Assembly (NCBI RefSeq): GCF_003325455.1
Contig: NZ_CP025198.1
Span: 992,001-1,056,000 of the forward strand
Source: Acidipropionibacterium virtanenii
GTDB lineage: Bacteria > Actinomycetota > Actinomycetes > Propionibacteriales > Propionibacteriaceae
Reading direction: 5' to 3'
Length of the DNA stretch: 64,000 nucleotides
Shown here: piece by piece, positions 1,198-26,014 of the stretch
How positions within the stretch are numbered: position 1 is the first letter of the stretch
Layout of the letters: every line of letters begins with the position of its first letter
Position numbers and translations under genes: made by a program
The notes under the pieces: model-generated
Seen by the model: only the letters and a program-made list of their open reading frames with translations
What the model was told of the DNA's origin: nothing
Databases searched by the model: none

Positions 1198-1208
1198 GAG
1201 GAGCCGAC

Positions 1209-2511: not shown

Positions 2512-2512
<1 letters not shown>
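1802..2512 (+). CDS. nuoC: NADH-quinone oxidoreductase subunit C
   Basis: A 236-residue protein of the 30-kDa subunit family. It packs against NuoD in the Q module of complex I and binds no cofactor. The family signature [16 protein letters not shown] is present, followed by the [10 protein letters not shown] and RKDYPLGG segments. About 45 N-terminal residues are low-complexity (Gly/Ser/Gln) and not part of the core. The start overlaps nuoB by 4 bases, and the stop shares one base with the nuoD ATG (TGATG). Confidence 0.95.
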
Positions 2513-3836
<1,324 letters not shown>

Positions 3837-3840
<4 letters not shown>

Positions 3841-4610
3841 CCGATCCCACACAGTCGTCCTCCTACCCCTATGAGGAGGAGTTCGAGTCGCATTTCGACG
3901 CCCCGTTGGTCGACCAGGACGATCAGTCCACGGCGATCACCGAGCAGACCATGGAGGAGCTGCGCTCCCTGGCCGCCCGCTACCCGGACTCCCGGTCGGC
4001 CCTGCTGCCGATGCTCCACCTGGTGCAGTCGGTCGACGGGCGGGTCTCCCCGGCCGGCGTCGAGGCCTGCGCCGAGGTGCTCGGCATCACCGCCGCCCAG
4101 GTCTCCGGAGTGGCCACCTTCTACACCATGTACAAGCGCCGCCCGGGCGGCACCCACCACATCGGGGTGTGCACCACCGCGCTGTGCGCCATCCTCGGCG
4201 GGGACGTGCTGCTGGACAAGGTGGAGCACAAGCTCGGCATCAAGGAGGGCCAGACCACCCCCGACGGGACGTTCTCCCTGGAGCGCATCGAGTGCAACGC
4301 CGCCTGCGACTTCGCGCCGATCATGATGGTCAATTGGGAGTACATGGACAACATGACCCCCCGGAAGGCCGAGGAGATCCTCGACGCGCTGGCCGCCGGC
4401 GAGGAGGTCCACTCCACCCGTGGCGCCACCATCACCTCCTGGCGGCAGGCCGAGCGGGTGCTCGCCGGATTCCCCGACGGGCGCGCCGATGAGGGCCCCA
4501 CCGCCGGCGAGGCCTCGCTGCGGGGCCTGCGGATCGCCCGGGAGCACGGCTGGCACGCCCCCGATCCGAACAGGCTTCCCCAGCCCGACACCGAGGAGGA
4601 GGGCAAGTGA
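3837..4610 (+). CDS. nuoE: NADH-quinone oxidoreductase subunit E
   Basis: This thioredoxin-fold subunit of the NADH-oxidising module binds [2Fe-2S] cluster N1a. The four ligands are Cys112, Cys117, Cys153 and Cys157 (C-x4-C and C-x3-C). At 257 residues it is about 90 longer than the E. coli protein, with an acidic N-terminal extension of about 30 residues and a Gly/Ala/Arg-rich C-terminal tail of about 55. Such tails are common in actinobacterial NuoE. The stop overlaps the GTG start of nuoF. Confidence 0.95.
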
Positions 4611-5956: not shown

Positions 5957-8427
5957 GTGTCGATACCGAGAAGGACGCCGGACAGGTGGCCGCCGAGAAC
6001 CTGGTGACCCTGACCATCGACGGCCAGCCGGTCAGCGTGCCCAAGGGCACCCTGATCATCCGGGCCGCCGAGCGGATGGGCACCGCCATCCCCAGGTTCT
6101 GCGACCATCCGCTGCTGGACCCGGCCGGCGCCTGCCGCCAGTGCCTGGTCGACATCCCCGACGCCGGCAACGGCCGCGGCTTCCCCAAGCCGCAGCCCTC
6201 CTGCACGATGCCGGTGGCCGAGGGCATGATCGTCAAGACCCAGAACACCTCCGAGGTGGCCCGCAAGGCCCAGGAGGGGATGCTGGAGTTCCTGCTCATC
6301 AATCACCCACTCGACTGCCCGATCTGCGACAAGGGCGGCGAGTGCCCGCTGCAGAACCAGTCGATGGCCGACGGCCGCTCCGAGTCCCGCTACGAGGGGG
6401 TCAAGCGCACCTACCCCAAGCCGATCAGCATCTCCGCTCAGATCCTGCTCGACCGCGAGCGCTGCGTGCTGTGCCAGCGCTGCACCCGCTTCTCCGACCA
6501 GATCTCCGGGGACCCCTTCATCAACCTCCAGGAGCGCGGCGCCCGGTCCCAGATCGGCGGCTACGACAAGGACGGGTACGACTCCTACTTCTCCGGAAAT
6601 GTCATCCAGATCTGTCCGGTCGGAGCCCTGACCAGCAAGGACTACCGGTTCCGCTCACGGCCCTTCGACCTTGTCTCCACGAGGACCACCTGCGAGCTGT
6701 GCGCAGCCGGCTGCGAGTTGCGCACCGATCACCGGCACTATCAGGTGACCCGCCGGCTGGCCGGCAACCTGCCCGAGGTCAACGAGGAGTGGAACTGCGA
6801 CAAGGGCCGCTTCGCCTTCCGGTACGGCCGAGGCAACGACCGCATCACCCGGCCGCTGGTGCGCCGCGACGGCGTCCTGCGGCCCGCCTCCTGGGCCGAG
6901 ACCATCGACGCCGCGGTGGGTGGTCTGAAGGCCGCCGGCGACCACGTCGGCGTGCTCACCGGCGGACGGCTCACGGTTGAGACCGGTCTCGCCTGGTCGC
7001 GCTTCACCCGGGCGGTGCTGGGCACCAACAACATCGACTTCCGCTCGCGTCCGGCATCCGCCGAGGAGGCGTCCTTCCTGGCCGCCGAGGTGGCCGGGCG
7101 GAGCCTGGCCGAATCGGTCACCTACGCCGACCTGGAGAAGGCCGGACGGGTCGTCCTGGTGGATCTGGAACCCGAGGACGAGAGCCCCGCGGTGTTCCTG
7201 AGGCTGCGCAAGGCGTGGCTCAAGCACCGGGTACCGGTCACCGTGATCGGATCCCACCTCACCCGCGGCTCGGTCAAGATGGGCGCCACCCTGGAGCCCA
7301 CCGCCCCCGGCGACGAGGCCGCATCCCTGGTGCGGATGGTCGAGGCCGAGCAGATCGACGACTCCACCGTGCTGCTGGTGGGGGAGCGGGCGGCCACCAG
7401 CCCCGGCACCCTCACCGCCCTGGTCGACGCCGCCCGCGTCACCGGCGCCCGACTCGCCTGGGTGCCCCGGCGGGCCGGCGACGTCGGCGCGGTGGAGACC
7501 GGGTGCCTTCCGGGCCTGCTGCCGGGCGGTCGCCCGGTCAGCGACACCCGGGCCCGTGTCGACATGGCGACCCTGTGGGGTGCCGGGTCGCTGCCGTCGA
7601 CCCCGGGCATGGACGCCGGGCAGATGCTCGCCTCCGTCGGCACCGAGGGCGGAGTCCGGGCCCTGATGGTCTCCGGCGTCCAGGCCCGCGACCTCGCCGA
7701 CCCGCAGGCGGCCCGCCGGGCCCTGGAGGCCGTCGACTTCCTGGTGAGCCTGGAGCAGCGGGCCTCCGAGGTGACCGAGCGCGCCGATGTCGTGCTGCCG
7801 GTGAGCCTGCTGGAGGAGACCTCCGGCACCTTCCTCAACTGGGAGCACCGTCCCGGACGGGTCCGGGTCATCAACAAGGAGGCCCCCACCCCGATGAACG
7901 AGATCCGGGTGCTGGCCGCACTGGCCGACGCGATGGGCTCGGATCTGGGGATGCGCACCGTCGTCGACGCCCACAACGCCTGGAACGAGATCGATCCCTG
8001 GCAGGGCCCGCGCCCCGCACTCGCCGACCCCGGGACGGCCGAGGAGGCCGCGCGGCTGCGCGACTCCGCCCACTCCTCCGGGGGGTTCAAGGTCGACCTG
8101 TGGCACCAGATGCTCGACGACTCCGCCGCCCTGTCCGGTGCCGTCCACCTCATCGAGAGCGCCCGACCCGCCCAGGTGCGCGTCTCGGTGGCCGCTGCCG
8201 AGAGGATCGGCGCCGCCGACGGCCAGGCCGTCGCGGTGACCGGGCCGGCCGGCTCGGTGGAACTACCGCTGATCGTGGAGCCCACGATGCTCGACGAGGT
8301 GGCATGGCTGCCCTCGTCGGGCCCCGTGTCCGCGGCGAGGGGAGACTCCTCGCTGCGCGAGATCCTCGGGGTGTCTCCCGGTGATCCGGTCGAGATCTCC
8401 ATCAAGTCCGAGGGAGGCGCGGCATGA
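5953..8427 (+). CDS. nuoG: NADH-quinone oxidoreductase subunit G
   Basis: The large 824-residue iron-sulfur subunit. Order of domains: a plant-type [2Fe-2S] domain (N1b; Cys in RFCDHPLL and ACRQC), a His-Cys [4Fe-4S] segment (N5), a ferredoxin-like pair (CVLCQRC and CPVGAL, N4), then a degenerate molybdopterin-oxidoreductase domain from about residue 245. At its start lies Cys247-x2-Cys250-x3-Cys254-x27-Cys282, the pattern that binds the extra cluster N7 in the E. coli and Thermus enzymes. The stop overlaps nuoH (ATGA). Confidence 0.96.
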
Positions 8428-9797
8428 GCCCGCTCGAGAGTGCCCTGTTCGGTACCGACCCCTGGTGGATCACCGTCATCAAGGTGGTCGTGCTCTTCGT
8501 CGTCCTGCTGATGTGGACCCTGTTCAACGTGTGGTTCGAGCGCAGGGTGCTGGGACGGATGCAGAACCGGCTCGGCCCCATCATGAACACGGCCTTCATC
8601 CGTGGTATGGGCCAGGCCATCGGCGACGGCATCAAGCTGATCTTCAAGGAGGTCGTCACTCCCAAGGGCGCCGACAAGATCGTCTTCTACCTGGCACCCG
8701 TGATCTCCGGCATCGCCTGCTTCACCTCCTGGGCGGTCATTCCGCTGGGCGGCCAGGTGTCCATGTTCGGCCACCAGACCCGCCTCCAGATCACCGACGT
8801 CCCCGTCGCCGCCCTGTTCATCCTCTCCATCGCCGGGATCGGCATCTACGGCATCGTGCTGGCCGGATGGTCCTCGGCCAGCACCTACTCCCTGCTGGGC
8901 TCGCTGCGCTCCAGCGCCCAGATGATCTCCTACGAGGTCGCCATGGGACTGTCGCTGGCCGCGGTCTTCATGTTCTCCGGGTCGATGGCCACCTCCGACA
9001 TCGTCGCCGCCCAGGCCAGGCCGCTGGTCCTCGGCGGGTTCAACACCCACATCCCCGGCCACTACTGGCTGCTGCTGCTGCCCAGCTTCGTGATCTACGT
9101 CATCACGATGTTCGGCGAGTCCAACCGGACCCCCTTCGACATGTCGGAGTGCGAGCAGGAGCTGGTCTCGGGGTACAGCACCGAGTACTCCGGCTTCCCC
9201 TACGGCATGTACTACCTGGCCGAGTACATCAACATGGCCACCCTCTCGGCGGTCTGCACCACCCTGTTCCTCGGAGGATTCGGGGCGCCCTGGCCGTTCA
9301 ACCTCATCGGCTTCATGGATTCGGGCTGGTTCGGCCTCGTGTGGTTCTTCCTCAAGACCCAGCTGGTGATCTTCTTCTTCGTGTGGGTGCGTGCCGCCGT
9401 CCCGAGGGTCACCTACGAGTCCCTCATGGCGCTGGGCTGGAAGGTGCTCATCCCGGTGTCCCTGGTGTGGGTGCTGCTGCTCGCCTTCTGGCGCACCGCC
9501 GGGGCCCAGGGCTGGCTCGCCAGCCCGGTCTTCGTCGGGGCGGTCGTGGTGATCGTGCTCGGTCTGATCGGATTCATCATGTTCGGCGGCTCCGAGAAGG
9601 AGCCTCCCGCACCCGAACCCGAGGCCTTCGACGCCTTCGCCGGCGGCTACCCGGTGCCCCCGCTGCCCGGCCAGAAGCTGCCCGACAGTTACGACGTCGT
9701 CCACTCCGAGGCCGCCCCGGCCGGCGCCGCCGCAGGACCGTCAGACGGCGATCCGTCCGCCACTCAGAAGTCCGCCACCCAGAACGGAGCCAACTGA
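8424..9797 (+). CDS. nuoH: NADH-quinone oxidoreductase subunit H
   Basis: The eight-helix membrane subunit that connects the peripheral arm to the proton-pumping arm and lines the quinone tunnel. Recognisable pieces are the N-terminal '[15 protein letters not shown]' loop and the '[19 protein letters not shown]' acidic loop involved in coupling. At 457 residues it exceeds the E. coli subunit by about 130. Most of the excess is a soluble Pro/Ala/Glu-rich C-terminal tail (about residues 390-457). The stop shares a base with the nuoI ATG. Confidence 0.95.
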
Positions 9798-10348
9798 TGG
9801 GAGCCTGGTCTGGGTTCGGAATCACCTTCCGGACCATGTTCAGAAAGACCTTCACCCAGGGGTACCCGGAGAAGGGCAAGGAGAAGGTGATGCCGCCCCG
9901 GTTCCACGGGCGGCACCAGCTGAACCGCTGGCCCGACGGGCTGGAGAAGTGCGTCGGCTGCGAGCTGTGCGCCTGGGCCTGCCCCGCCGACGCCATCTAC
10001 GTCGAGGGCGGGGACAACACCGAGGAGGAGAGGTACTCCCCGGGGGAGCGGTACGGCCGCGTCTACCAGATCAACTATCTGCGCTGCATCCTGTGCGGAC
10101 TGTGCATCGAGGCCTGCCCCACCCGGGCGCTGACCATGACCAATGACTTCAAGATGGCCGACACCACGCGGGCCAAGCTCATCTGGACCAAGGCGGAGCT
10201 GCTCGCCCCGCTGGTCTCCGGGATGGAGCAGCCGCCCCACCCGCGGCGTCTGGGCGACGACGAGAAGTCCTACTTCCTCGGCCTTCCGCCCACCGGCGCA
10301 CCTGATACGAGAACCGGCGCATCGAACACCGAGGGGGAGACCCGATGA
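9797..10348 (+). CDS. nuoI: NADH-quinone oxidoreductase subunit I
   Basis: A 183-residue 8Fe ferredoxin-type subunit holding clusters N6a and N6b, the last relay before N2. Two complete CxxCxxCxxxCP motifs are visible, beginning CVGCELC and CILCGLC. The ATG at 9797 is set by the TGATG junction with nuoH. A longer frame open upstream runs across nuoH and has no coding character. The stop overlaps nuoJ (ATGA). Confidence 0.96.
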
Positions 10349-11172
10349 TCGTCATGGTCGCAGCGGCCCAGTGGGCCTTCTGGCTGCTCGCCCCGCTGAT
10401 GGTGCTCGGGGCCCTGGGCATGATCCTCGCCCGCCGGGTCGTGCACTCGGCCTTCTGCCTGGCCGTCGTGATGATCTGCCTGGCCGTGCAGTACGCCGCC
10501 CAGGAGGCGCCCTTCCTCTTCGTGGTGCAGATCATCGTCTACACCGGCGCCGTGCTGATGCTCTTCCTCTTCGTCGTGATGATGATCGGTGTCGACGCCA
10601 AGGACAGCGTCTCCGAGGTGCTCAAGGGACACCGGGTCGCCTCGATCCTGGTCGCCCTGGTGCTGGCCGCCATGATCGTGGTGGCCGTTGGCAACGCCGT
10701 CACCGCCGGGCAGCTCGGCATCGACCGGGCCACCGGCCTGGCCGCCGCCAACGCCGAAGGCGGCAACAACGTCAACTCACTGGCCGACCTGCTCTTCAGC
10801 AGGTACGTCATCCCCTTCGAGGCCACCTCGGCGCTGCTCATCACCGCGGCGCTGGGAGCCATGGTGCTCGCCCACGGCGAGCGGCTGCGCGGCAAGAAGA
10901 GGCAGCGGGAGCGCTACGGCGAGCGGATGAAGGCCTACGCCGAGTCCGGCGCCCATCCCGGGCCTAAGCCCAACTCCGGCGTCTACGCCCGAAGCAATGC
11001 GATCGGCGCCCCGGCCCTGCTGCCCGACGGCACCGTCGCTCCCGACTCCATCTCGGAGGCGCTGCGCTCGCGCGGCGGCATCGTCGACGCCGGGGAGCTC
11101 AAGGCCCCCACCGAGCGGGCCTTCGCCACCGTGACCGCCGGGCGGGCCGAGGTCGAAGGAGAACTCGAATGA
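10345..11172 (+). CDS. nuoJ: NADH-quinone oxidoreductase subunit J
   Basis: A membrane subunit with five hydrophobic segments in the first 180 residues. Segment 3 contains the '[22 protein letters not shown]' stretch, counterpart of the pi-bulge helix implicated in coupling. At 275 residues it carries about 90 extra charged residues at the C-terminus, facing the cytoplasm by prediction. It overlaps nuoI upstream and nuoK downstream (both ATGA). Confidence 0.95.
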
Positions 11173-11468
11173 ACCCGAACGACTACCTGATCCTGTCGGC
11201 GATCCTCTTCGCCATCGGCATCCTCGGGTTCCTGTTCCGCCGTAATGCCATCGTCGCGTTCATGTCGGTCGAGCTGATGCTCAACGCCGTCAACCTCACG
11301 ATGGTGACCTTCTCCCACGTGCACGGCGGCCTGGACGGCCAGATCGGCGCGTTCTTCGTGATGATCGTCGCCGCCGCCGAGGTCGTGGTGGGGCTGGCCA
11401 TCATCGTCACCATCTTCCGCTCCCGTCGCACCACCTCGGTCGACGACGTCAACCTGATGAAGTACTGA
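11169..11468 (+). CDS. nuoK: NADH-quinone oxidoreductase subunit K
   Basis: A 99-residue three-helix subunit, MrpC-like, of the proton-translocating arm. The two membrane-embedded glutamates of the family are present as Glu35 (in SVELMLNA) and Glu71 (in AAAEVVVGL). The length is canonical. The ATG overlaps the nuoJ stop. The nuoL start lies 11 bases downstream behind a GAGGAG site that includes the nuoK stop. Confidence 0.96.
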
Positions 11469-11479
11469 GGAGTGTCGGC

Positions 11480-13387
11480 GTGTACCTTCTCGAAACCCTG
11501 ACCCCGGTCGCCGCCGGCGGCCTGTTCAGCTACGCCTGGCTGCTCATCGCGGTACCGGCCGTCTGCGCCGCCCTGCTGCTGATCCTCGGCCGCGCGTCCG
11601 ACGCCTGGGGGCATCTGATGGCCACCCTGGCCCCGATCGCCTCCTTCATCATCGCCCTGCTGCTGTTCCTCGACATGCTCGGACGCGACGCCGCACAGCG
11701 CGCCGTGCGGGTACCGGTCTACGACTTCGTCGACGTCGGCTCCTGGCATCTGGACGTCGGGCTGCAGATCGACCAGCTGTCGATCGTCTTCGTGCTGCTG
11801 GTGACCTTCGTCGGCTCGCTGATCCACATCTACTCCATCGGTTACATGGCCCACGACCCGAACAGGCGCCGGTTCTTCGCCTACCTCAACCTGTTCATCG
11901 CCGCCATGCTCACCCTCGTGCTGGCCGACAACTACCTGGTGCTCTTCGTCGGATGGGAGGGCGTGGGCCTGGCCTCCTACCTCCTGATCGGCTTCTGGTA
12001 CGAGCGGCCCACCGCCGCCGCGGCCGGCAACAAGGCCTTCATCATGAACCGGATCGGCGACCTGGGCCTCACCATGGCGATCTTCACCATGCTGGCCCAG
12101 TTCGGTTCGGCTCGCTTCACCGACGTCTCCGCCGGAGCCGCGTCGTTGAGCCCGGGATGGGCCACCCTGCTCGGCTTCATGCTGCTGCTGGCCGCCTGCG
12201 GCAAGTCCGCCCAGGTGCCGCTGCAGGACTGGCTGATGGATGCCATGGAGGGCCCCACACCGGTCTCGGCGCTCATCCACGCCGCCACCATGGTGACCGC
12301 CGGCGTCTACCTGGTGGTCCGCTCCCACGCCGTCTACGAGCACACCTACGCCGCCTCCCTGGCGGTCGCGATCGTCGGCACCGTCACCCTGCTGGCTGGA
12401 GCCTGGATCGGCTCGACCAAGAAGGACATCAAGAGGGTGCTGGCCGGATCCACCATGAGCCAGATCGGCTACATGATGCTGGCAGCCGGTCTCGGGCCCG
12501 CCGGGGCCGCATTCGCGATCTTCCACCTGCTCACCCACGGCGCCTTCAAGGCCAACATGTTCCTGGGCGCCGGATCGGTGATGCACGGGACCGGCGACGA
12601 CACCGACGTGTACCATTTCGGGGCGCTGTCCAAGGTGATGCCGATCACCTTCTGGACCTTCGCCTGCGGCTACCTGGCGATCATCGGCTTCCCCGGAACC
12701 GCCGGCTACTTCTCCAAGGACCACATCATCGAGGTGGCCTTCGAGCGCGGCCCGGTGTTCGGCATCCTGGCGCTGCTGGGCGCGGGCATCACCGCCTACT
12801 ACATGACCCGCCTCATGGTGCTGACCTTCCTCGGTCGCAAGCGCTGGCGCGAGGAGGTCCACCCCCACGAGTCCCCGGCCACCATGACGGTGCCGCTGGT
12901 GGTGCTGGCCTTCCTGTCGATCATCGCCGGAGCGGCGATGAACAACTGGATCGGCGACTGGCTGGCCCCGGCCACCGGATCCCATGTCGAGCCCACCGGA
13001 CTGCTGCACCTGTCGGCGATCGGGGCCGTGACCCTGGTGGTGGTCGCCGCCGGCATCGTCCTGGGCTGGCTGCTCAACCGCGGCGAGGTTCCCGGCGAGG
13101 AGCCGGCCACCAGCAACCCGATCGCGCTGGTAGGCCGCAACGACCTGTACGGGCGCACCATCAACAACGCCCTCGTCGTGCGGCCCGGCCGCTCGGCCGC
13201 CCACACTCTGGCAGCGGCCGACAAGGGCGTCGTCGACGGTGCGGTGATGGGCGGATCCGGCCTCGTGGCCGGTGTGGCCGCCGGGCTGCGCAGACTGCAG
13301 AACGGCTATGTGCGCACCTACGGGCTGACGACGGCCATCGGTGTCGTACTGGTGGGCGTCGTCGTGATCCTCGGCCGGATGGCCTGA
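11480..13387 (+). CDS. nuoL: NADH-quinone oxidoreductase subunit L
   Basis: The 635-residue distal antiporter-like proton pump. It has a multi-helix core with the conserved 'HAATMVTAGVYLV' and 'LTHGAFKANMFLGAG' segments, and a long C-terminal part corresponding to the lateral helix. Translation starts at GTG 11480 behind GAGGAG (11467-11472). A GTG 7 bases upstream is out of frame. It ends 13 bases before nuoM. Confidence 0.95.
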   Translation: MYLLETLTPVAAGGLFSYAWLLIAVPAVCAALLLILGRASDAWGHLMATLAPIASFIIALLLFLDMLGRDAAQRAVRVPVYDFVDVGSWHLDVGLQIDQLSIVFVLLVTFVGSLIHIYSIGYMAHDPNRRRFFAYLNLFIAAMLTLVLADNYLVLFVGWEGVGLASYLLIGFWYERPTAAAAGNKAFIMNRIGDLGLTMAIFTMLAQFGSARFTDVSAGAASLSPGWATLLGFMLLLAACGKSAQVPLQDWLMDAMEGPTPVSALIHAATMVTAGVYLVVRSHAVYEHTYAASLAVAIVGTVTLLAGAWIGSTKKDIKRVLAGSTMSQIGYMMLAAGLGPAGAAFAIFHLLTHGAFKANMFLGAGSVMHGTGDDTDVYHFGALSKVMPITFWTFACGYLAIIGFPGTAGYFSKDHIIEVAFERGPVFGILALLGAGITAYYMTRLMVLTFLGRKRWREEVHPHESPATMTVPLVVLAFLSIIAGAAMNNWIGDWLAPATGSHVEPTGLLHLSAIGAVTLVVVAAGIVLGWLLNRGEVPGEEPATSNPIALVGRNDLYGRTINNALVVRPGRSAAHTLAAADKGVVDGAVMGGSGLVAGVAAGLRRLQNGYVRTYGLTTAIGVVLVGVVVILGRMA

Positions 13388-13400
13388 GGGAGGAGATGAG

Positions 13401-14921
13401 ATGAGTTTCCCGATCCTCACCGTCCTGGCACTGCTGCCGGTCCTGGCGGGCGTGGTCGTGCTCCTGATGAAGGGGCGCGCCGCCCGGCTGACCGGAATGG
13501 TGGTCTCCCTGGCAATCCTGGTTCTCGGCGTCGTCGCCTTCGTGGCGGCCGCCCGGGGAACCGACCTGGCCGAGACGCACAGCTGGATCCCGGCGGTCGG
13601 CGCGTGGTACGCGCTGGGCTCGGACCCGCTGTCGATGACGATGGTGCTGCTGACCGTCGCCCTGGTGCCCGTCGTCCTGGGCGCCGAATGGCATGTCGGA
13701 GAGCGCACCGCGGCGACCGGAGGGCTGCCGACATCGGCCTTCTTCGGCCTGGCGCTGATCCTGGAGGGCCTGGCCCTCTACTGCTTCGTCTCGGTCGACG
13801 TCCTGCTGTTCTACCTGTTCTTCGAGGCCACCCTCATCCCGATGTACTTCCTCATCTCCGGATGGGGAGGGCCCCGGCGCCGCCAGGCTGCCGTCAAGTT
13901 CCTCATCTACTCGCTGGCCGGCGGCCTGGTGATGCTCTTCGCGGTGATCGGGGTGGGCGTCCACTCCGGATCCTCGGGGAAGACCTCCTTCCTGCTCAGC
14001 GACCTGGCGAAGGTGAGCTTCGACGGCTCGATCGGGCGCTACCTGTTCATCGGCTTCTTCGTGGCCTTCGCGATCAAGGCGCCGATGGTGCCGGTACACA
14101 CCTGGCTGCCCGACACCGCCGAACAGGCCACCCCCGGGGCATCCACCCTGCTGGTCGGCATCCTCGACAAGATCGGCACCTTCGGAATGCTGAGGCTGTG
14201 CCTGGGCCTGTTCCCGCAGGCCTCGGCCTGGGCGACGCCGGTGGTCCTGGTGCTGGCCGTCGTCTCGATCCTGTGGGGGGCCGCGATGGCCGCCACCTCG
14301 AAGGACCTCATGAGGCTGGTCTCCTACACCTCGGTGAGCCACTTCGGCTTCATGGTGCTGGGCATCTTCGCGGTGACCACCTCCTCGATCACCGGGTCGA
14401 TCTTCTACATGTTCAACCACGGATTCTCCACGGCGGCCCTGTTCCTGGTCCTCGGGTTCCTGGTGCACCGCCGCGGGTCCGCCGACGTCAACGCCTTCGG
14501 CGGGGCGCAGAAGACCGCACCGGTGCTGGCCGGACTCTTCCTGGTAGCCGGACTGGCTACCCTCGGACTGCCCGGAATGTCCAGTTTCGTCAGTGAATTC
14601 CTCTCCCTGGCCGGAGCCTGGGGACGCCACCCGGTATACGTCGCGGTGGCCACCATCGGCATGGTGCTGGCCGCGGTCTACGTACTGCGCGCCTACAAGC
14701 GCACCATGACCGGGCCGGTCACCGATGATGTCGCCGCACACGTGGACAAGGACGCGAGCGGCCGGGAGAAGCTCGTGCTGGCACCGCTGGTCATCGTGCT
14801 GCTGGTCCTCGGGTTCTTCCCGAAGCCGATCCTCAGCGTCATCGAACCGGCTGCCCGGGCCACCATGTCACAGGTCGGAGCGACCGATCCCGCCCCGGTC
14901 GCCAAGGAGGGTGTCAAGTGA
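13401..14921 (+). CDS. nuoM: NADH-quinone oxidoreductase subunit M
   Basis: A 506-residue antiporter-like subunit. Characteristic membrane residues are in 'FFEATLIPMYFLI' (the conserved Glu) and 'APMVPVHTWLPDTAEQATP' (His/Lys path). The start at 13401 follows GGGAGGAG at 13388-13395. The stop overlaps the GTG of nuoN. The length is normal. Confidence 0.95.
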   Translation: MSFPILTVLALLPVLAGVVVLLMKGRAARLTGMVVSLAILVLGVVAFVAAARGTDLAETHSWIPAVGAWYALGSDPLSMTMVLLTVALVPVVLGAEWHVGERTAATGGLPTSAFFGLALILEGLALYCFVSVDVLLFYLFFEATLIPMYFLISGWGGPRRRQAAVKFLIYSLAGGLVMLFAVIGVGVHSGSSGKTSFLLSDLAKVSFDGSIGRYLFIGFFVAFAIKAPMVPVHTWLPDTAEQATPGASTLLVGILDKIGTFGMLRLCLGLFPQASAWATPVVLVLAVVSILWGAAMAATSKDLMRLVSYTSVSHFGFMVLGIFAVTTSSITGSIFYMFNHGFSTAALFLVLGFLVHRRGSADVNAFGGAQKTAPVLAGLFLVAGLATLGLPGMSSFVSEFLSLAGAWGRHPVYVAVATIGMVLAAVYVLRAYKRTMTGPVTDDVAAHVDKDASGREKLVLAPLVIVLLVLGFFPKPILSVIEPAARATMSQVGATDPAPVAKEGVK

Positions 14922-16558
14922 TCTCCACTGTGTTACTCGCGTCCGCGCAGGGGTTGTCCGCGGCGGGCTCGCTCCCGGCATCTCCGATGGAGGTGAGCGC
15001 GCCGACCATCGAGTACGGCCTGCTGGCACCGCTGTTCATCATCATGGCGGCGGCGTGCGTGTCGGTGCTCGTGGAGGCCCTCGCGCCGCGCGATGCGCGT
15101 CGCGGGGCCCAGTTGGCCATCACCGCGATCGGCCTGCTGGCTGCCCTCGGCTCCACCCTGAGCTCCTGGAGCGGGGCCCGCTTCCAATTGGTCGCCGAAC
15201 AGGCGATCGCCCTGGACGCCCCGAGCTATGCGACCTGGACGCTGCTCATCGTCTTCTCCCTGGCGGTCGTGGCGCTGTTCGCCGAGCGCTCCGGAAGCAC
15301 CGAGACGGCCTTCGTGGCCAGCGCCTCCACCGTTCCCGGGTCGCAGCCGGAGCGAGAGGCCGTCGCCGCCCATCTTCAGCACACCGAGGTGTACCCGCTG
15401 ATGATGTTCTCGCTGCTGGGGATGATGATCTTCGCCTCCTCGAACGAGCTCATCGTGATGTTCGTGGCTCTGGAGATCTTCTCCCTGCCGCTCTATCTGC
15501 TGTGCGCGATGGCCAGGCGGCGCCGGCTGCTCTCCCAGGAGGCGGCGCTGAAGTACTTCCTGCTGGGCGCCCTCTCCTCGGCCATCTTCCTCTACGGCAT
15601 CGCGCTGCTCTACGGCGTCTCCGGCTCCTTCAGCCTGGCTGCTGTCGACGCCGCCGTCGCCGGCCAGGCGGGATCCTCCAGGATCGTGCTGGCCGGCATG
15701 GTGATGGTCTCGGTCGGACTGCTGTTCAAAGTGGGTGCCGTGCCGTTCCACAACTGGGTCCCCGACGTCTACATGGGAGCCCCCACCCCGGTGACCGCGT
15801 TCATGTCGGTGGCCACCAAGATCGCCGGCGTCGTCGGGCTGACGCGAGTCCTCTACGTGGGTCTGGGAGGCCTGCGCTGGGACTGGCAGGTCCTGCTTGC
15901 GGTCGTCGCCGTGGCCACCATCGTCATCGGCTCGGTGGTCGGCCTCGTCGAGACCGAGATGAAGCGGCTGCTGGCCTATTCCTCCATCTCCCACGCCGGA
16001 TTCATCCTGGTGGCGGTCGCCGGGGCCTTCACCGCTCAGACCGGAATGGCGCAGGGCAGCTTCGGCTCCTGGTCGTCCGTGATGGTCTACCTCACCGGCT
16101 ACGGTCTGGCCACCATCGGCATGTTCGTCATCATCGCGATGATCCGCCGTGCCGGAGGCGAGTCGACCGAACTGGCCTCCTGGGCCGGCCTGGGCCGCAG
16201 CCATCCCTGGCTCGGCGCCCTGGTGACCCTGTTCATGCTGAGCTTCGCCGGGATCCCGCTCACCGCCGGATTCATCGGGAAGCTCATGGTCTTCACCGCA
16301 GGCTGGCGCGGGGGCCTCGCCTGGCTCTCGCTCATCGGCATCCTGTTCAGCCTGGTCGCCGCGTACTACTACCTGCGCGTGATCTGGGTGATGTTCTTCC
16401 GCACCCCCGGCCGCGCCGCCGAGGAGGTGGAGGTCGCCCCGCTCAGCACCGGCGGGTGGATCGTGCTGATCGTGTGCGCCCTGGGCACGCTGGGGCTGGG
16501 TATCGTCCCGCAGCCCCTGATCGAGATGTTCGACAACGCCAGTACATTCCTCCGATAG
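14918..16558 (+). CDS. nuoN: NADH-quinone oxidoreductase subunit N
   Basis: A 546-residue antiporter-like subunit next to NuoK in the assembled complex. Signature segments are 'GAVPFHNWVPDVYMGAPTP' and 'LLAYSSISHAGFIL'. The GTG start (14918) overlaps the nuoM stop and follows AAGGAGGG (14904-14911). This is the last gene of the complex I set. A short GNRA-loop hairpin begins directly after its TAG. Confidence 0.95.
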   Translation: MISTVLLASAQGLSAAGSLPASPMEVSAPTIEYGLLAPLFIIMAAACVSVLVEALAPRDARRGAQLAITAIGLLAALGSTLSSWSGARFQLVAEQAIALDAPSYATWTLLIVFSLAVVALFAERSGSTETAFVASASTVPGSQPEREAVAAHLQHTEVYPLMMFSLLGMMIFASSNELIVMFVALEIFSLPLYLLCAMARRRRLLSQEAALKYFLLGALSSAIFLYGIALLYGVSGSFSLAAVDAAVAGQAGSSRIVLAGMVMVSVGLLFKVGAVPFHNWVPDVYMGAPTPVTAFMSVATKIAGVVGLTRVLYVGLGGLRWDWQVLLAVVAVATIVIGSVVGLVETEMKRLLAYSSISHAGFILVAVAGAFTAQTGMAQGSFGSWSSVMVYLTGYGLATIGMFVIIAMIRRAGGESTELASWAGLGRSHPWLGALVTLFMLSFAGIPLTAGFIGKLMVFTAGWRGGLAWLSLIGILFSLVAAYYYLRVIWVMFFRTPGRAAEEVEVAPLSTGGWIVLIVCALGTLGLGIVPQPLIEMFDNASTFLR

Positions 16559-19325: not shown

Positions 19326-21335
19326 CTACCAGATCGTGACCCGCTGTGCCGGATCGAGCCACAGACCGTCCCCGGGCTGCACGTCGAAGGCCTCGTAGAA
19401 GGCGTCGACGTTGCGCACGATCTGGTTGCAGCGCAGTTCGTCGGGGGAGTGCGGGTCGGTGGCGATCCGCGAGCGCAGCGCCTCGTCACGGTACTTGCCC
19501 TGCCAGATCGTCGCATAGGACAGGAAGAAGCGCTGCTGCCAGGTGAGTCCGTCCACGGGGGCGGGCGGATTGTCACCGAAGGAGATCCGCAGGGCCAGAT
19601 AGGCGATGCCCACCCCGCCCAGGTCCCCGATGTTCTCGCCGATGGTCAGCGCGCCGTTGACGTGCGGGCCGTCGGGCCGCAGCTGGTCGGGAATCAGGGC
19701 GTCGTACTGGGCGATGAGGGCCTTGGTGCGCTGCTCGAAGGCAGCACGGTCCTCGGCGGTCCACCAGTCCCGCAGGCGTCCGTGACCGTCGCAGGTGGAG
19801 CCCTGGTCGTCGAAGCCGTGACCGATCTCGTGACCGATCACCGCTCCGATGCCTCCGTAGTTCACGGCGTCATCGGCCTCCACGTTGAAGAACGGGGGCT
19901 GGAGAATCGCTGCGGGGAAGACGATCTCGTTGCGCAGCGGGTGGTAGTAGGCGTTCACGGTCTGGGGGAACATCAGCCATTCGTTCGGGTCCATCGGACC
20001 CGAGAGCTTCTCGATGGTGCGGTCCAGCTCGAAGGAGGAGGCCGCCTGCACGGCATCGAGGAGGTTCCCGGCCGGCAGCTGGAGCCCGCCGAAATCACGC
20101 CAGGTGTCCGGGTAGCCGATCTTCGGGCGGAAGTTCGCCAGTTTCGTGAGAGCCTCCGCCCGGGTGTTCTCGCCCATCCAGTCCAACCCGGTGATCGAGA
20201 TCCGGTAGGCCTCCAGGACGTTGCCGACCAGCTCGTCCATCCGCTGCTTGGCGGCCGGCGGGAAGTGCCGGGCCACATAGAACTTGCCGAGAGCCTCTCC
20301 CAGGACCGATTCCACGAACCCCACCCCGCGCTTCCAGCGGGCCCGCAGCACCGGCGTCCCCGACAGCGTGCGCCCGTAGAAGTCGAAATTCTGCTCCACC
20401 AGATCCGAGGACAGGAATGGCGAATAGGCCCGGATCACCCGCCAGGCGGCCCACGCCTTCCAGTCGCTCAGCCGCTCCTCGGTGACCAGCGGCTCCACCT
20501 CGTCGAAGAAGCTCGGCTGGTTGACGACCACCGTCCTCAGCACTCCCTCGGGAATGGCCGCCGCCTCGCGCCAGGCCTCCAGGAAGAGCCCCGGATGGGT
20601 GGCTGCCAGATCCTCGAAGGAGGTGGGATTGTAGGACGCCTTCATGTCGCGGCAGCGCACCTGGTCCCAGTGGTGGGAGGCGATCTCGGTCTCCAACTCC
20701 ATGATCCGGGCCGCCGTGGCGTCTGCGTCGCGGTCGTCGGTGCTGTCGGGGCCGGCCACCCCGACCAGCCGCAGCGACCGGCTGATGTGGGCCGTGTAGG
20801 CCGCCCGGATCTCCGCCTTGTCGTCATCGCGGTAGTAGGCCTCATCGGGCAGCCCGATGCCCGCCTGTCCTGTCCAGGGGACGTAACGGTCCGGGTCGGC
20901 GGGGTCGGAGTCCTCCTCCAGATAGAACAGCCCGCCGACGCCGTGGCGCCCGGCCCAGCCGAGGAAAGACATCAGAGCCTCCGGCGAGTCGATCGCGTCC
21001 ACCCGGTCCAGAACCGGCCGCAACGGCTGTGCCCCGGCCTGCTCGACGGCGTCGGTGTCCATGAAGCGACGGTAGAACCCGGCCAGCAGCTCGGCCTCGT
21101 GCTCAGTGGCCTCCGGGGTGTCGGCGAGGAGATCCGCGCCACGACCGGCGGCCAGCTCCTCCAGAATCTCGTGGACGGCGGCCTCGGAGGCGTCCCTCAG
21201 CACACGGAAGGCGCCTGTCGAGGCCTGGTCCTCAGGAATCGTGGCCCCGGCAAGCCACGTCCCGTTGACGTGACGGTAGAGGTCGTCGGCAGGTCGCACG
21301 GAGGAATCGAGATCATGGAACAGCGCTTGAGTCAT
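19326..21335 (-). CDS. M13 family zinc metalloendopeptidase (neprilysin/PepO-like)
   Basis: 669 residues with the full M13 signature: substrate-binding NAYYHP, zinc-binding H502-E503-I-G-H506, and third zinc ligand Glu567 in ENIGD with the supporting Asp571. The C-terminus ends in RVTIW, close to the family's final Trp. No signal peptide or transmembrane anchor is visible, as in other bacterial PepO-type members, so it is probably cytoplasmic and cleaves peptides. The ATG at 21335 is 17 bases after korB, suggesting cotranscription with korAB. Confidence 0.92.
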   Translation of the reverse strand: MTQALFHDLDSSVRPADDLYRHVNGTWLAGATIPEDQASTGAFRVLRDASEAAVHEILEELAAGRGADLLADTPEATEHEAELLAGFYRRFMDTDAVEQAGAQPLRPVLDRVDAIDSPEALMSFLGWAGRHGVGGLFYLEEDSDPADPDRYVPWTGQAGIGLPDEAYYRDDDKAEIRAAYTAHISRSLRLVGVAGPDSTDDRDADATAARIMELETEIASHHWDQVRCRDMKASYNPTSFEDLAATHPGLFLEAWREAAAIPEGVLRTVVVNQPSFFDEVEPLVTEERLSDWKAWAAWRVIRAYSPFLSSDLVEQNFDFYGRTLSGTPVLRARWKRGVGFVESVLGEALGKFYVARHFPPAAKQRMDELVGNVLEAYRISITGLDWMGENTRAEALTKLANFRPKIGYPDTWRDFGGLQLPAGNLLDAVQAASSFELDRTIEKLSGPMDPNEWLMFPQTVNAYYHPLRNEIVFPAAILQPPFFNVEADDAVNYGGIGAVIGHEIGHGFDDQGSTCDGHGRLRDWWTAEDRAAFEQRTKALIAQYDALIPDQLRPDGPHVNGALTIGENIGDLGGVGIAYLALRISFGDNPPAPVDGLTWQQRFFLSYATIWQGKYRDEALRSRIATDPHSPDELRCNQIVRNVDAFYEAFDVQPGDGLWLDPAQRVTIW

Positions 21336-21352
21336 GACCCCACTGTATTGAT

Positions 21353-22495
21353 TCAGTTCTCGGTGACCCGGCCGTCCTCGGAGACCTCCCAGTTGTCGAC
21401 CCCGTTGATGAGATTCTGGAGATCCTCGTCCTGGGCCTCGGTGCCGGTCCGCTCACCCATCGCCCGGGCGACCTGCTCACGGGCCAGATCGTCGTAGGCC
21501 GGGCGCGTCACCTCCCGGAAGACGCCGACCGGGGTCTGGGCGATCTCGCCGGAGTCGCACAGGTGTGCCAGCTCGAACGCCAGCGACGGGTCCTCGCGGT
21601 GGGCGTCGTGCACGAGCACATGGTCGATACCCGCCTCGGCGACATCCGCCACCCTCAGCGAGCCGCTCACCGGGTCGCGCACCACACCGCGGGCCCTGTC
21701 GGCCCCCAGCAGCACCGGCTCACCGTCGGCCAGCTTCACCAGATGGTCGGCGGCGTCAGGGCCCTTGAGATCCTCGAAGGCGCCGTCATTGAAGATCGGG
21801 CAGTTCTGGTAGATCTCCACGAAGGAGGTGCCGCGGTGCTTGGCCGCCGCGGTCATCGTCGCGTCCAGGGTCTTGCGGTCGGAGTCGATGACCCGGGCCA
21901 CGAAGGAGCAGCCCGCCCCCAGCGCCAGCGAGACCGGGTTGAACGGGTAGTCCAGGGACCCCATCGGGGAGGACTTCGTCACCTTGCCCTGCTCGGAGGT
22001 GGGGGAGTACTGACCCTTCGTGAGCCCGTAGATCTCGTTGTTGAACAACAGGATCGTCAGGTTCACGTTGCGACGCATCGCGTGAATGAGGTGGTTGCCA
22101 CCGATGGACAGGGCATCACCGTCACCGGTCACCACGAAGACCGCCAGATCGGGCCGCGAGATCGCCAGGCCGGTGGCGATGGCCGGGGCCCGGCCATGGA
22201 TCGAGTGCATCCCGTAGGCATCCATGTAGTACGGGAACCGCGACGAGCACCCGATACCGGAGATGACGACGGCGTCCTCCTTGGCGATCCCCAGCTCGGG
22301 GAGCACGCCCTGGAAGGTGGACAGGATCGAGTAGTCACCGCAGCCGGGGCACCAGCGCACATCCTGGTCGGACGCGAAGTCGCGGCGCTTCAGCGGGCTG
22401 AGGGCCAGGGGGACGCCGGCCAGCCCGCCCTCGGCGGGCAGGGAGTGGCCGTTGCGGGGCCGCATCGGCGACGGCTGGATCTGATCTGTGGTCAT
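21353..22495 (-). CDS. korB: 2-oxoglutarate:ferredoxin oxidoreductase, beta subunit
   Basis: This 380-residue subunit binds thiamine diphosphate and a [4Fe-4S] cluster and pairs with KorA to oxidise 2-oxoglutarate to succinyl-CoA, reducing ferredoxin. Visible: Cys49 and Cys52 in WCPGCGDYS, a third conserved Cys in GIGCSSRFPYY, and the TPP motif VTGDGDALSIGGNH followed by NNEIYGLTKGQYSPT. The ATG at 22495 overlaps the korA stop (ATGA). Longer upstream reading in this frame is antisense-like and rejected. This enzyme gives many actinobacteria a CO2-releasing TCA step that yields low-potential electrons. Confidence 0.93.
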   Translation of the reverse strand: MTTDQIQPSPMRPRNGHSLPAEGGLAGVPLALSPLKRRDFASDQDVRWCPGCGDYSILSTFQGVLPELGIAKEDAVVISGIGCSSRFPYYMDAYGMHSIHGRAPAIATGLAISRPDLAVFVVTGDGDALSIGGNHLIHAMRRNVNLTILLFNNEIYGLTKGQYSPTSEQGKVTKSSPMGSLDYPFNPVSLALGAGCSFVARVIDSDRKTLDATMTAAAKHRGTSFVEIYQNCPIFNDGAFEDLKGPDAADHLVKLADGEPVLLGADRARGVVRDPVSGSLRVADVAEAGIDHVLVHDAHREDPSLAFELAHLCDSGEIAQTPVGVFREVTRPAYDDLAREQVARAMGERTGTEAQDEDLQNLINGVDNWEVSEDGRVTEN

Positions 22496-24441
22496 CGTGC
22501 CTCCTTCTTCGAGGCGGTTGAGGAGGTGAAGTCGGAGCAGTGCCCGCACAGCGCGTCGCACAGGTCCACCGGGGAGATCGGCAGTCCGCGCACCCGCGAG
22601 ATGGTCCTGATGTCGACCAGGTACTTGGCGCGCAGCAGCATGGCGAGCTGCCCGGTGTTCATTTCGGGCACCACCACCCGCCGGTAGCGTCGCAACACCT
22701 CGCCGAGATTGTCGGGGAAGGGGTTGATGTGACGCAGGTGGGCCTGGGCGATCCTCTCGCCCTTGTCGCGTACGCGGCGCACCCCGGCGGTGATCGGCCC
22801 GAAGGTGGAGCCCCAACCGAGCACCAGCACATCGGCGTCACCGGTCGGATCATCGACCTCGACGTCGCCGATGTCGCGGGAGATACCCGCGATCCGAGCC
22901 GCGCGGGTCCGCACCATCTCCTCGTGGTTGTTCGGGTTGTACGAGATGCTGCCGATATTGGCGGCCTTCTCCAGCCCGCCGATCCGGTGTTCCAGGCCCT
23001 TGGTGCCGGGCAGCGCCCACGGCCTCGCGAGGGTCTCGGGATCCCGCTTGTACGGCAGGAACCGGTCGGAGCCGTCGGCCGCCTTCGCGTTGGGTCCGGT
23101 GGCGAACCCGGGATCCACCCGTTCGATGTCGGCCAGCGCGGGGATCCTCCACGGCTCGGCGCCGTTCCCCAGGTAGCCGTCGGAGAGCATCACCACCGGG
23201 GTGCGGTACTTGATGGCGATCCGGCAGGCCTCCACCGCGGTGTCGAAGCAGTCCAAGGGGGACTTCGCGGCGATCACCGGGACCGGCGACTCGCCGTTGC
23301 GCCCGAACATCGCCTGCAGCAGATCGGCCTGCTCGGGTTTGGTCGGCATGCCGGTGGACGGCCCGGAGCGCTGCACATCGACGATGACCAGCGGAAGCTC
23401 GGTCATCACAGCCAGGCCGATCGTCTCCGCCTTGAGCGACATCCCGGGGCCGGACGTCGTGGTGACGCCCAGGGAACCGCCGAAGGACGCGCCCAGGGCC
23501 GCGCCGATGCCGCCGATCTCGTCCTCGGCCTGAAAGGTGAGGACGTTGAGATCCTTGTGCTTGGACAGCTCGTGCAGGATGTCGGAGGCGGGGGTGATCG
23601 GGTAGGACCCGAGGAAGAGTTGCAGCCCCGCACGATTGGCTCCGGTGATGAGACCCAGTGCGGTGGCCTGATTGCCGGTGATCTGACGGTAGAGGCCGGC
23701 CGGCGTCGGGGCCGGGGCCACCTCGTAGCGCACCGTGAACAGCTCGCAGGTCTCGCCATAGGCGTGCCCGGCCTTGAGCGCGGCGATATTGGCGTCGCGG
23801 ATGTCGGGCTTGGCGGCGAACTTGGTCCTGAGGAACCTCTCCGAGGGCTCCAGCGGGCGCCCGTACAGCCAGCTGAGCAGGCCCAGGGCGAACATGTTCT
23901 TCGACCGCTCGGAGTTCTTGCGGCCGAGATCGAAGCCCTCCACGGCGCCGACCGCCAGCGCGGTGAGATCCAGCTCGACGACCTGGTAGGACTCAAGGGT
24001 GCCGTCGGTGCGCGGATCCTCGGCGAAGTTGGCCTTCTTGAGGTTGCGCTTGGTGAACTCCGCGCTGTCCAGGACGATGAGCGCCCCTCGTCGCACCTCG
24101 CCGAGGTTGGCGGCCAGTGCGGCGGGGTTCATCGCCACCAGCACGTCCGGCTGGTCGCCGGGGGTGGCGATGTCGTAGTTGGCGAAATGGACCTGGAAGC
24201 TCGAGACGCCGGGGATCGTGCCCTGTGGGGCGCGGATCTCCGCCGGGAAGCTCGGCAGGGTTGAGATGTCATTGCCGTGCACCGCCGACTCGGCGGTGAA
24301 CCTGTCACCGGTCAGCTGCATGCCGTCACCGGAGTCACCCGCGAACCGGATGACGACCCGGTCCAGGGTCTGGACGGCGAGTGGCGGCGTCTGCGTGCTG
24401 ACCGGCGAATCTGTTGTCGACGGCTCTGTGACTGAGGGCAC
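22492..24441 (-). CDS. korA: 2-oxoglutarate:ferredoxin oxidoreductase, alpha (gamma-alpha fused) subunit
   Basis: About 649 residues. The N-terminal gamma domain begins with RFAGDSGDG (about residues 32-40) and is fused to the alpha domain containing GSYPITPASDILHEL and the CoA/TPP-facing segments. This is the fused architecture known from mycobacterial KorA. The GTG at 24441 is preferred because an AAAGAGG site lies 5 bases upstream; ATG 24459 is in frame but has no ribosome-binding site. It is divergently transcribed from a NuoB-like gene across a 297-base gap. Substrate (2-oxoglutarate rather than pyruvate) is by family resemblance. Confidence 0.92.
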   Translation of the reverse strand: MPSVTEPSTTDSPVSTQTPPLAVQTLDRVVIRFAGDSGDGMQLTGDRFTAESAVHGNDISTLPSFPAEIRAPQGTIPGVSSFQVHFANYDIATPGDQPDVLVAMNPAALAANLGEVRRGALIVLDSAEFTKRNLKKANFAEDPRTDGTLESYQVVELDLTALAVGAVEGFDLGRKNSERSKNMFALGLLSWLYGRPLEPSERFLRTKFAAKPDIRDANIAALKAGHAYGETCELFTVRYEVAPAPTPAGLYRQITGNQATALGLITGANRAGLQLFLGSYPITPASDILHELSKHKDLNVLTFQAEDEIGGIGAALGASFGGSLGVTTTSGPGMSLKAETIGLAVMTELPLVIVDVQRSGPSTGMPTKPEQADLLQAMFGRNGESPVPVIAAKSPLDCFDTAVEACRIAIKYRTPVVMLSDGYLGNGAEPWRIPALADIERVDPGFATGPNAKAADGSDRFLPYKRDPETLARPWALPGTKGLEHRIGGLEKAANIGSISYNPNNHEEMVRTRAARIAGISRDIGDVEVDDPTGDADVLVLGWGSTFGPITAGVRRVRDKGERIAQAHLRHINPFPDNLGEVLRRYRRVVVPEMNTGQLAMLLRAKYLVDIRTISRVRGLPISPVDLCDALCGHCSDFTSSTASKKEAR

Positions 24442-24738: not shown

Positions 24739-25188
24739 GTGCATTATCTCGACTGGTTCGCGGATTCCACGATGGTCGTCACCGACCTCGCGCTGGCGTG
24801 CTGCGGCGTCGAGAGTGGCCTGGCCGTCCCGCTGAAGGCGAAATCGGTCGTCGAGCCTCCGGCCGGGGCCCGCCGTGTCGTGGTGGTCTCGGGAACCATC
24901 TCGTCGGCTCTGGCCCCCGCCGTGGTCGATGCGATCGGGAGGATTGCCGAGGACTGTGCTCGCTGCGCCGCCCAGCGGCCCGTCGTCCTCGCATTCGGCG
25001 CCTGTGCCTGCGGTGGGGGCCCCTACTGGGACTCACTGCCCGTGCTGAACGGCATGGACGCGCTGCCGACCACCGGCGCCGCCCCCATCCCGGTGGACCG
25101 CTGGATTCCGGGCTGCCCTCCACCGGCCCGGGAACTGGCGCGTGTCATCGACGAGATCCACCGGCAGACCGTGGCGGGAGCCGCATGA
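24739..25188 (+). CDS. NuoB-like iron-sulfur protein (short paralogue)
   Basis: 149 residues, a compact version of the NuoB/hydrogenase-small-subunit fold. All cluster N2-type ligands are kept: tandem Cys21-Cys22 in LACCGVE, Cys89 in GACACGGGPY and Cys126 in PGCPP. It is about 50 residues shorter than the nuoB product at 1209 and clearly divergent from it, so it is not a recent duplicate. The GTG start follows AGGGTGAGAC (24728-24737). It is the first of five ATGA-coupled genes. No NuoD-like partner, which normally completes the site beside this cluster, is encoded nearby. Function unknown; electron transfer is inferred. Confidence 0.85.
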   Translation: MHYLDWFADSTMVVTDLALACCGVESGLAVPLKAKSVVEPPAGARRVVVVSGTISSALAPAVVDAIGRIAEDCARCAAQRPVVLAFGACACGGGPYWDSLPVLNGMDALPTTGAAPIPVDRWIPGCPPPARELARVIDEIHRQTVAGAA

Positions 25189-25688
25189 GTGCCGCCGGCC
25201 TCGAGCCGGACGAGGTCGCCGACGTGACACCGCAGCAGTGGCGCGACGCCGTGACCGCGGCCATCGCCTCCGGATGTCGCTGGTTGAGCCTGATCACCGC
25301 CTGGGACGCGTCCTGCGAATCGGCGACGCGAGGTGCGGGCCGACGAGGTGCCCGCGGTCGGGCGGATGCACGACCGGAGATGGTCGTGTGCTGCCGGCTC
25401 CTCGACCGTGAGGCGGGCCGTGCCATTCGTCTGGAGACCCGGATCCCCTGGGATGAGCGGGACGGCTACCGGTTGCCGTCGGTGCGCGATCTGGTGGCCG
25501 GGGCGGCCTGGTACGAGCGCGAGATCGCCGATCAGTTCGGAATCACCGTTGACGGCGCAGACCCGCGTCCTCCGGTCATCCACCCCGGCCGGTCCGCGAC
25601 GCCGGCCGCCCCGATGAGACGATCAGTCGAACTCCCGGGCCGCGCCGGCGGACCGCCCGGAGGCCGTGAGCGGGGGAGGCGGAGATGA
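25185..25688 (+). CDS. NuoC-like protein (short paralogue)
   Basis: 167 residues. The only strongly conserved block is [22 protein letters not shown], matching the 30-kDa signature [16 protein letters not shown]. The segment that follows in true NuoC ([19 protein letters not shown]) is reduced to 'PVIHPG' and then an Arg/Gly/Pro-rich tail. It overlaps the NuoB-like gene (ATGA) upstream and the ferredoxin gene downstream (ATGA). In complex I and group 4 hydrogenases, NuoC-like proteins scaffold NuoB and NuoD; here it may scaffold the small NuoB-like protein. Confidence 0.8.
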
Positions 25689-26014
25689 GCCATGGTTCGA
25701 TCGGCCTCATCGCGCAGCGATGCACCTCCTGCATGATCTGCGCACGGCAGTGCCCGGCATGGTGCATCCATATCGACTCCCACACCGAACGTATCGGCGA
25801 TCCGGATGACCGGAGACCCCGCAGCGTCAAGGTCCTCGATCGCTTCGAGATCGACTGGGGCGTGTGCATGTACTGCGGTATCTGCATCGCCGACTGCCCC
25901 TTCGACGCTCTGGAATGGCGTGCCGGCCACAACCCCGCGGCCGAGGCGCGCCCCGGCCTGCGACAGGCCTGGACGGGCGGCGGGACCACCGACGGTTCCG
26001 GCGGGTCGCTATGA
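25685..26014 (+). CDS. NuoI-like 2[4Fe-4S] ferredoxin protein
   Basis: 109 residues with two complete cluster motifs, [12 protein letters not shown] (about 13-24) and [12 protein letters not shown] (about 61-72), spaced as in NuoI/HycF rather than in bacterial ferredoxins. Between them lies the '[13 protein letters not shown]' strand typical of NuoI-type proteins. It ends in a Gly/Ser-rich tail. ATGA overlaps on both sides bind it to the NuoC-like gene and to the mannosyltransferase gene. With KorAB next door, a natural guess is that it accepts electrons from reduced ferredoxin or from KorB. Confidence 0.85.

Follow-up and report, generated by a model that had tools for sequence, protein, structure and literature searches.

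A NuoB-, NuoC- and NuoI-like gene trio beside korAB in Acidipropionibacterium virtanenii, a distant NuoD2, and a candidate soluble module derived from a complex I-like enzyme

The trio and its neighbours

The window analysed here is a stretch of 64,000 nucleotides from Acidipropionibacterium virtanenii. Within it, three plus-strand open reading frames (trioB, trioC and trioI; together 24739–26014), joined by two ATGA overlaps, lie beside a divergently transcribed korAB pair, whose product oxidises 2-oxoglutarate, and are separate from a complete nuo operon. The relevant features are:

829–16558, plus strand: main nuoA–N operon (Nuo1), which includes a NuoB, C, D and I of its own (subunit names by position; blastp)
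21353–22495, minus strand: korB, beta subunit (TPP_enzyme_C; TIGR02177 249.5 bits, just below the cut-off of 261.9)
22492–24441, minus strand: korA, 2-oxoacid:acceptor oxidoreductase alpha subunit (POR, POR_N and PFOR_II; TIGR03710 656 bits, cut-off 483)
24739–25188, plus strand: trioB, NuoB-like, 149 aa, GTG start (Pfam, alignment, AlphaFold2/Foldseek)
25185–25688, plus strand: trioC, NuoC-like, 167 aa, ATGA overlap with trioB (Pfam, alignment)
25685–26014, plus strand: trioI, NuoI-like, 109 aa, ATGA overlap with trioC (Pfam, alignment)

The original prediction described three ATGA-coupled NuoB-, NuoC- and NuoI-like genes that keep all of their cluster ligands, with korAB next door and a separate complete nuo operon, and each of these points is borne out. 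Specifically, the three products exceed the Pfam cut-offs for Oxidored_q6 (trioB, 42.3 bits; cut-off 27), Complex1_30kDa (trioC, 51.9 bits; cut-off 22.5) and Fer4 (trioI, 36.6 bits; cut-off 21.1). All three miss the NCBIfam cut-offs for NuoB, NuoC and NuoI, and we therefore regard them as divergent members of these families. The AlphaFold2 model of trioB has a mean pLDDT of 93.8, and the best 50 Foldseek matches listed for it are complex I or related NDH structures, headed by complex I NuoB chains.

The four N2 ligands of trioB (Cys21, 22, 89 and 126) do not vary among the 21 rows of one alignment, and neither do the eight cysteines of trioI (13, 16, 19 and 23; 61, 64, 67 and 71), which lie in two CxxCxxCxxxCP motifs, among the 19 rows of another. 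The same alignments place trioI without the N-terminal segment of NuoI and trioB without the PRxA quinone loop. Loss of cluster ligands across homologues, a check that the original prediction had posed for itself, was not what we found: among loci with a B gene the CC pair and the third cysteine are present in 55/55 and GCP in 54/55, and the two NuoI motifs occur in 51/56 loci. The five loci without both motifs are three contig ends, one locus with a distant I gene (L184) and one chance locus (L179).

We considered, and rejected, trioI as a KorD/PorD delta subunit, since its 34.3 bits against TIGR02179 fall under the cut-off of 60.05 and it scores higher on the NuoI model TIGR01971 (52.8 bits; cut-off 113). 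Neighbourhood genes were read with a simple gene caller, which missed trioC in the window and the trio genes in L031. Two smaller observations concern the surroundings and trioC: a peptidase family M13 protein (19326–21203, minus strand) sits beside korB here and in several relatives, and a basic C-terminal tail (RRR..PPGVPDP..WG), common in the alignment to Nuo2 (see below) and most trio NuoC proteins, is absent from the trioC of the window and of its congener.

A distant NuoD2 that co-occurs with the trio

The prediction that the trio has no NuoD holds at the locus and fails for the genome, as genome-wide NuoD and profile searches found a second, divergent NuoD homologue. This NuoD2 (384 aa; Pfam Complex1_49kDa 139 bits, cut-off 24) lies outside the window on the same chromosome (C1:751697–752851, minus strand), at a distance of 263,888 bases from the trio; with it, the genome encodes a homologue of each subunit of the complex I Q-module (NuoB-C-D-I) outside Nuo1. 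Its AlphaFold2 model has a mean pLDDT of 91.4, and the best 50 Foldseek matches listed are, again, complex I or related NDH structures. NuoD2 is flanked by genes with Pterin_bind, FolB and HPPK domains and by a Clp ATPase, and its neighbours are similar in most relatives fetched. A Pfam NuoD search across 96 genomes (this one and relatives) returned extra divergent NuoD matches in trio genomes.

Group 4 [NiFe] hydrogenases are ferredoxin-linked enzymes whose small and large subunits are homologous to NuoB and NuoD. Differing from these, the A. virtanenii NuoD2 has three cysteines and no CxxC, and hence no NiFe site, on which ground we ruled out a group 4 hydrogenase remnant; the trio also has no membrane subunits.

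Trio and NuoD2 come and go together. In the window's family, a NuoD2 profile search and a trioB search of 57 genomes gave 23 with both, none with the trio only, two with NuoD2 only and 32 with neither; the 23 include G044, whose trioB is cut by a contig edge, and some of the 32 are incomplete (e.g., G048 77%, G013 71%, G006 82%). G056 (90% complete) carries an intact NuoD2 and no trio was found in it, its trioB match being a chance one that we discarded. In G037, which has no trio, NuoD2 is frame-broken (L290:4615–5516: shortened and split over two frames). Trio presence varies inside six genera: NuoD2 tracks it cleanly in g1, g11 and g18, a broken NuoD2 copy persists in a trio-less species of g13, the g25 species without trio and NuoD2 is just 77% complete, and G056 makes g29 discordant. 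Two further families of the same order have a trioB-like gene and NuoD2 in 24/24 genomes, the NuoD2 of G057 being in two pieces, and in a third neither is present (15/15).

At class level we sampled 246 genomes, scored for the motif GGPYWD of NuoB, which is absent from the window's main NuoB. The motif occurs in 101 genomes and NuoD2 in at least 99 (two partial); among the NuoD2 matches listed, at least 95 genomes have both, six the motif only, at least four NuoD2 only and 141 neither (Fisher p = 4e-55, with relatedness ignored and NuoD2 counted among the matches listed). The motif-only genomes are four that are 72–85% complete, G099 (93% complete, with a real trio) and G203, whose motif we set aside as a chance match with no nuo-like gene around it. 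Wherever both lie on one contig (22 genomes), at least 73 kb separate them. A NuoD elsewhere that is tied to the trio in relatives, another check raised at the outset, thus exists by co-occurrence and not by linkage.

Both parts of this set are under purifying selection. Between two trio-bearing congeners, dN/dS is 0.25 for trioB, 0.27 for trioC, 0.25 for trioI and 0.21 for NuoD2. For comparison, KorA and KorB each give 0.08, the neighbouring gene at 26122 gives 0.10 and the enoyl-CoA hydratase at 27603 gives 0.22; by this measure, the trio changes at roughly three times the pace of KorAB.

Membrane arm and quinone site

The absence of a membrane partner for the trio, as originally predicted, extends to the whole genome: a genome-wide search found a single NuoH and no second membrane arm, and the three antiporter-like proteins found are NuoL, M and N of Nuo1. 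In Streptomyces and others, the same locus position holds a complex of the 11-subunit type without NuoEFG, Nuo2 (A, B, C and H–N, with D2 unlinked). Among the named matches listed, Streptomyces and Actinomadura loci carry A-B-C-H-N adjoining korAB; these named matches are Nuo2 loci, ordinary NuoB loci and one named trio (L073, Actinosynnema pretiosum), with no trio from the window's family among them. We fetched five of the 24 neighbourhoods from the two other families of the order. In one family (L025–L027) A-B-C-H-I-J-K-L-M-N lies near korAB (C not called in L026), and in the other (L023, L024) nuo genes are scattered among unrelated genes; no NuoD was found near any of the five loci (best tblastn E with the A. 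virtanenii NuoD, 3.5). A single row of A-B-C-D2-H-I-J-K-L-M-N is present in L089, L096, L097, L099 and L103, from Acidimicrobiia or unplaced Actinomycetota.

The separation of Streptomyces nuoD2 from nuo2 is already published, and NuoC2 goes unlisted in the available parts of those descriptions (PMC3765725, PMC8388888). A Complex1_30kDa protein (L085:7709–8632; 115.8 bits) lies behind NuoB2 in a Streptomyces nuo2 locus, and a NuoC-like gene holds the same position in L080, L084, L091, L093 and L095 (54–62% to the N2_C reference where called), so that nuo2 plus nuoD2 would form a full 11-subunit set.

The membrane-less form is widespread. Nuo2-type NuoH was accepted in 60 of the 246 class-sample genomes (62 matches; two NuoH matches of 45–46% identity were set aside), 59 of which carry the GGPYWD motif. 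Forty-two motif genomes do not have this NuoH; two belong to the window's family and were already covered, and for the remaining 40 we retrieved the neighbourhoods. In 34 of these, B, C and I occur without any paralogue of A, H or J–N, and the rest comprise one with B and I in which C was undetected, three contig ends, one chance match and one intermediate (G124). Trios without a membrane arm are found in 15 families, the window's included, with open frames and cluster ligands kept across them. Judged by the membrane subunits that Nuo2 has of its own (A, H and J–N), the A. virtanenii genome falls outside it, and the trio looks like Nuo2 minus that arm.

Quinone-site features decay where the membrane arm, scored as NuoH2, is absent. 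For NuoD we used the numbering of Thermus thermophilus Nqo4, in which we take His38 and Tyr87 to be quinone-site residues, as we take the NuoB loop to have a quinone-site role; a phmmer alignment that starts by pairing residue 24 of NuoD2 with residue 26 of Nqo4 (2fug_4) agrees with this numbering. The Tyr87 position is Trp in 111/111 NuoD2 proteins. The His38 position is His in 62/62 NuoD2 proteins with NuoH2 as against 33/49 without, and the Thr37–His38 pair is kept in 62/62 as against 9/49 (the 49 include G162, G111, G204 and G271). On the NuoB side, 34–35 residues separate the CC ligands from the SGT motif in Nuo2 loci, with PRxA in 29/29, as against 26–43 residues and PRxA in 3/50 in trio loci; in four recent or cut cases the segment is still 34 residues long with PRxA. 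Of these quinone-site features the A. virtanenii genome has none: its NuoD2 has Pro at position 38 and Trp at 87, and trioB is without the PRxA loop. Such losses are experiments of nature that point out the NuoB and NuoD residues involved in quinone chemistry, which are fixed with NuoH2 and drift without it.

One genome appears to have been caught with its membrane arm midway through loss. In G124 (one contig, 3.1 Mb) B, C and I are full-length and J–N are absent; NuoA measures 93 aa and NuoH 123 aa, the latter pieced together from three segments of the normal protein, all in frame. At L161:9311–11763, in-frame deletions inside NuoA and NuoH account for the shortening, and the B, C and I genes around them are intact. 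On the NuoD2 tree—a quick tree that carried long-branch and composition warnings—G124 branches among NuoH2 genomes, and NuoH2 presence and absence require at least three changes (G162 and G111, at contig ends, and G204 and G271, with no trio seen, were left out of this count). From the G124 intermediate and the complete row in outer loci we infer that the direction of change is loss. The identity and descent of the trio are, on these grounds, well supported.

By the common view, complex I arose when a soluble hydrogenase-like module was joined to a membrane antiporter one. Here evolution seems to have gone in reverse no fewer than three times by the NuoD2 tree, with G124 midway, and the finding widens from one locus to repeated loss of the membrane arm, with the core retained, from an actinobacterial complex I-like enzyme.

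A candidate soluble B-C-D-I module and its rivals

We consider it probable that the trio joins with the unlinked NuoD2 in a soluble B-C-D-I module, derived from Nuo2 by loss of the membrane arm, that passes low-potential electrons to a non-quinone acceptor. The four proteins would assemble in one soluble complex; reduced ferredoxin or KorAB would feed electrons into the pair of [4Fe-4S] clusters in trioI, the N2-type cluster in trioB would receive them next, and a soluble non-quinone acceptor would take them up at a remodelled B/D2 interface, with electron transfer in this presumed direction and no proton pumping. As far as gene content and conserved residues can tell, the small soluble-looking electron-transfer unit of the original prediction, distinct from the main nuo operon and beside korAB, thus finds support. 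The broader generalization, that a ferredoxin-fed complex I has lost its proton-pumping arm time and again in Actinobacteria and that the four subunits retained serve as a new soluble oxidoreductase with a non-quinone acceptor, the trio and NuoD2 being one case, has in our judgement about an even chance of being right. Several observations pull against the soluble module: some trio genomes have no KorAB or POR_N protein, KorA occurs in many relatives without the trio, G056 has NuoD2 without the trio, His38 survives in part of the NuoD2 proteins without NuoH2, and the trio evolves faster than KorAB.

Each of the rival explanations is less likely than a soluble B-C-D2-I module. The trio and NuoD2 could dock on the membrane arm of Nuo1 (A, H, J–N) in place of its peripheral arm and yield a ferredoxin-fed proton pump, close to the docking on complex I that had been proposed originally; that arm is always at hand, and the Nuo2 ancestor was itself a membrane complex. 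A trio using NuoH1 should have kept its quinone-site features and the NuoI N-terminal segment, however, and since the NuoB loop and Thr37–His38 decay where NuoH2 is absent and trioI has no such segment, we find this docking unlikely. A module that merely holds clusters, as a redox sensor, a store or an assembly factor, would be in keeping with the absence of a linked acceptor or flavin subunit from the neighbourhoods read and with a module that outlives all POR_N proteins in seven genomes, but three cluster sites kept as a chain would exceed a sensor's need, and we hold such a role to be quite improbable. Least credible, and very unlikely in our view, is a decaying, functionless relic of Nuo2: loss of the membrane arm, evolution fast relative to KorAB, the broken NuoD2 of trio-less G037 and loss in part of six genera all fit decay, whereas dN/dS values of 0.21–0.27, open frames and ligands across 15 families, and the joint loss of trio and NuoD2 though they are unlinked argue against it.

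The trio could also be a KorAB-specific acceptor, i.e., a ferredoxin-like partner whose role is lost without KorAB. The two adjoin divergently in the window and in relatives: korAB shares a stretch with the trio in 15/15 family loci fetched (L028–L042; about 7 kb off in L039 and L041), and korA or korB similarity is found in 23/35 class-sample trio stretches. On the contrary, neither KorA nor any POR_N-family protein, and hence no further 2-oxoacid:ferredoxin oxidoreductase, was found in seven trio genomes that are 96–99% complete (G157, G214, G223, G250, G267, G275 and G299), one of which, G275 (L188), keeps a whole trio beside mere kor fragments; KorA is found without the trio in many relatives, three congeners among them; and NuoB, C and D would be superfluous for a plain ferredoxin partner. 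KorAB is therefore not obligatory for the trio: as its only partner it is ruled out, it cannot be the B-C-D-I module's only reason to exist, and an exclusively KorAB-bound role strikes us as improbable. The dependence on KorAB that the original prediction entertained accordingly stands as adjacency throughout the family stretches and fails as a requirement. KorAB may be a frequent donor to the module, yet one not required for its retention. The trio bears, all the same, on where actinobacterial KorAB electrons go, a destination called unclear for M. tuberculosis in the available part of one account (PMC2773412).

Comparison with known systems sharpens these distinctions. Streptomyces nuo2 plus nuoD2 shares orthologous B, I and D2, an unlinked NuoD2, korAB nearby and, by our present reading, a NuoC2 behind B2; it differs in keeping the membrane arm (A, H, J–N), Thr37–His38 and the NuoB loop. 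Those 11-subunit complex I-like enzymes for which ferredoxin has been proposed as the donor (e.g., in Desulfitobacterium), as the available part of their description presents them (PMC11238625), resemble the trio in having no NuoEFG and in electrons that would enter at NuoI from ferredoxin; they retain the membrane arm and quinone reduction, whereas the trio module has neither the arm nor an intact quinone site. With 14-subunit complex I (NuoA–N) the module shares the B, C, D and I folds, complex I chains being the best PDB matches of trioB and NuoD2, and it differs in having no E, F, G or membrane arm and in the Trp at the Tyr87 position of NuoD2. No description of the membrane-less form was found in the literature searched, which did not extend to subscription papers and preprints.

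Some further loci deserve mention. In two g11 genomes (L039:11531–16237 and L041) the trio and korAB are separated by genes for a sulfite/nitrite reductase of the ferredoxin-dependent type by Pfam, for two PAPS-reductase-family proteins and for a GTPase; seen in no more than these two genomes, they were rejected as general trio partners, and the ferredoxin-linked reductase is a possible clue to the acceptor. A separate cluster encoding NuoB-, NuoL-, NuoH-, NuoM- and NuoD-like proteins occurs in L057, L058 and L059 (G009, G032 and G028); the NuoD-like protein of L057 also matches NiFeSe_Hases (54.9 bits), and the cluster is probably a group 4 hydrogenase or a relative. Outside the window (G000:C1:3023558–3024238), the A. 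virtanenii genome encodes another POR_N protein; its open frame runs to 1643 residues, and it is probably a pyruvate:ferredoxin oxidoreductase. Finally, the KorA matches in G108:C181 and G198:C6 contain two and one internal TGA codons, respectively, and the trio does not adjoin korAB there.
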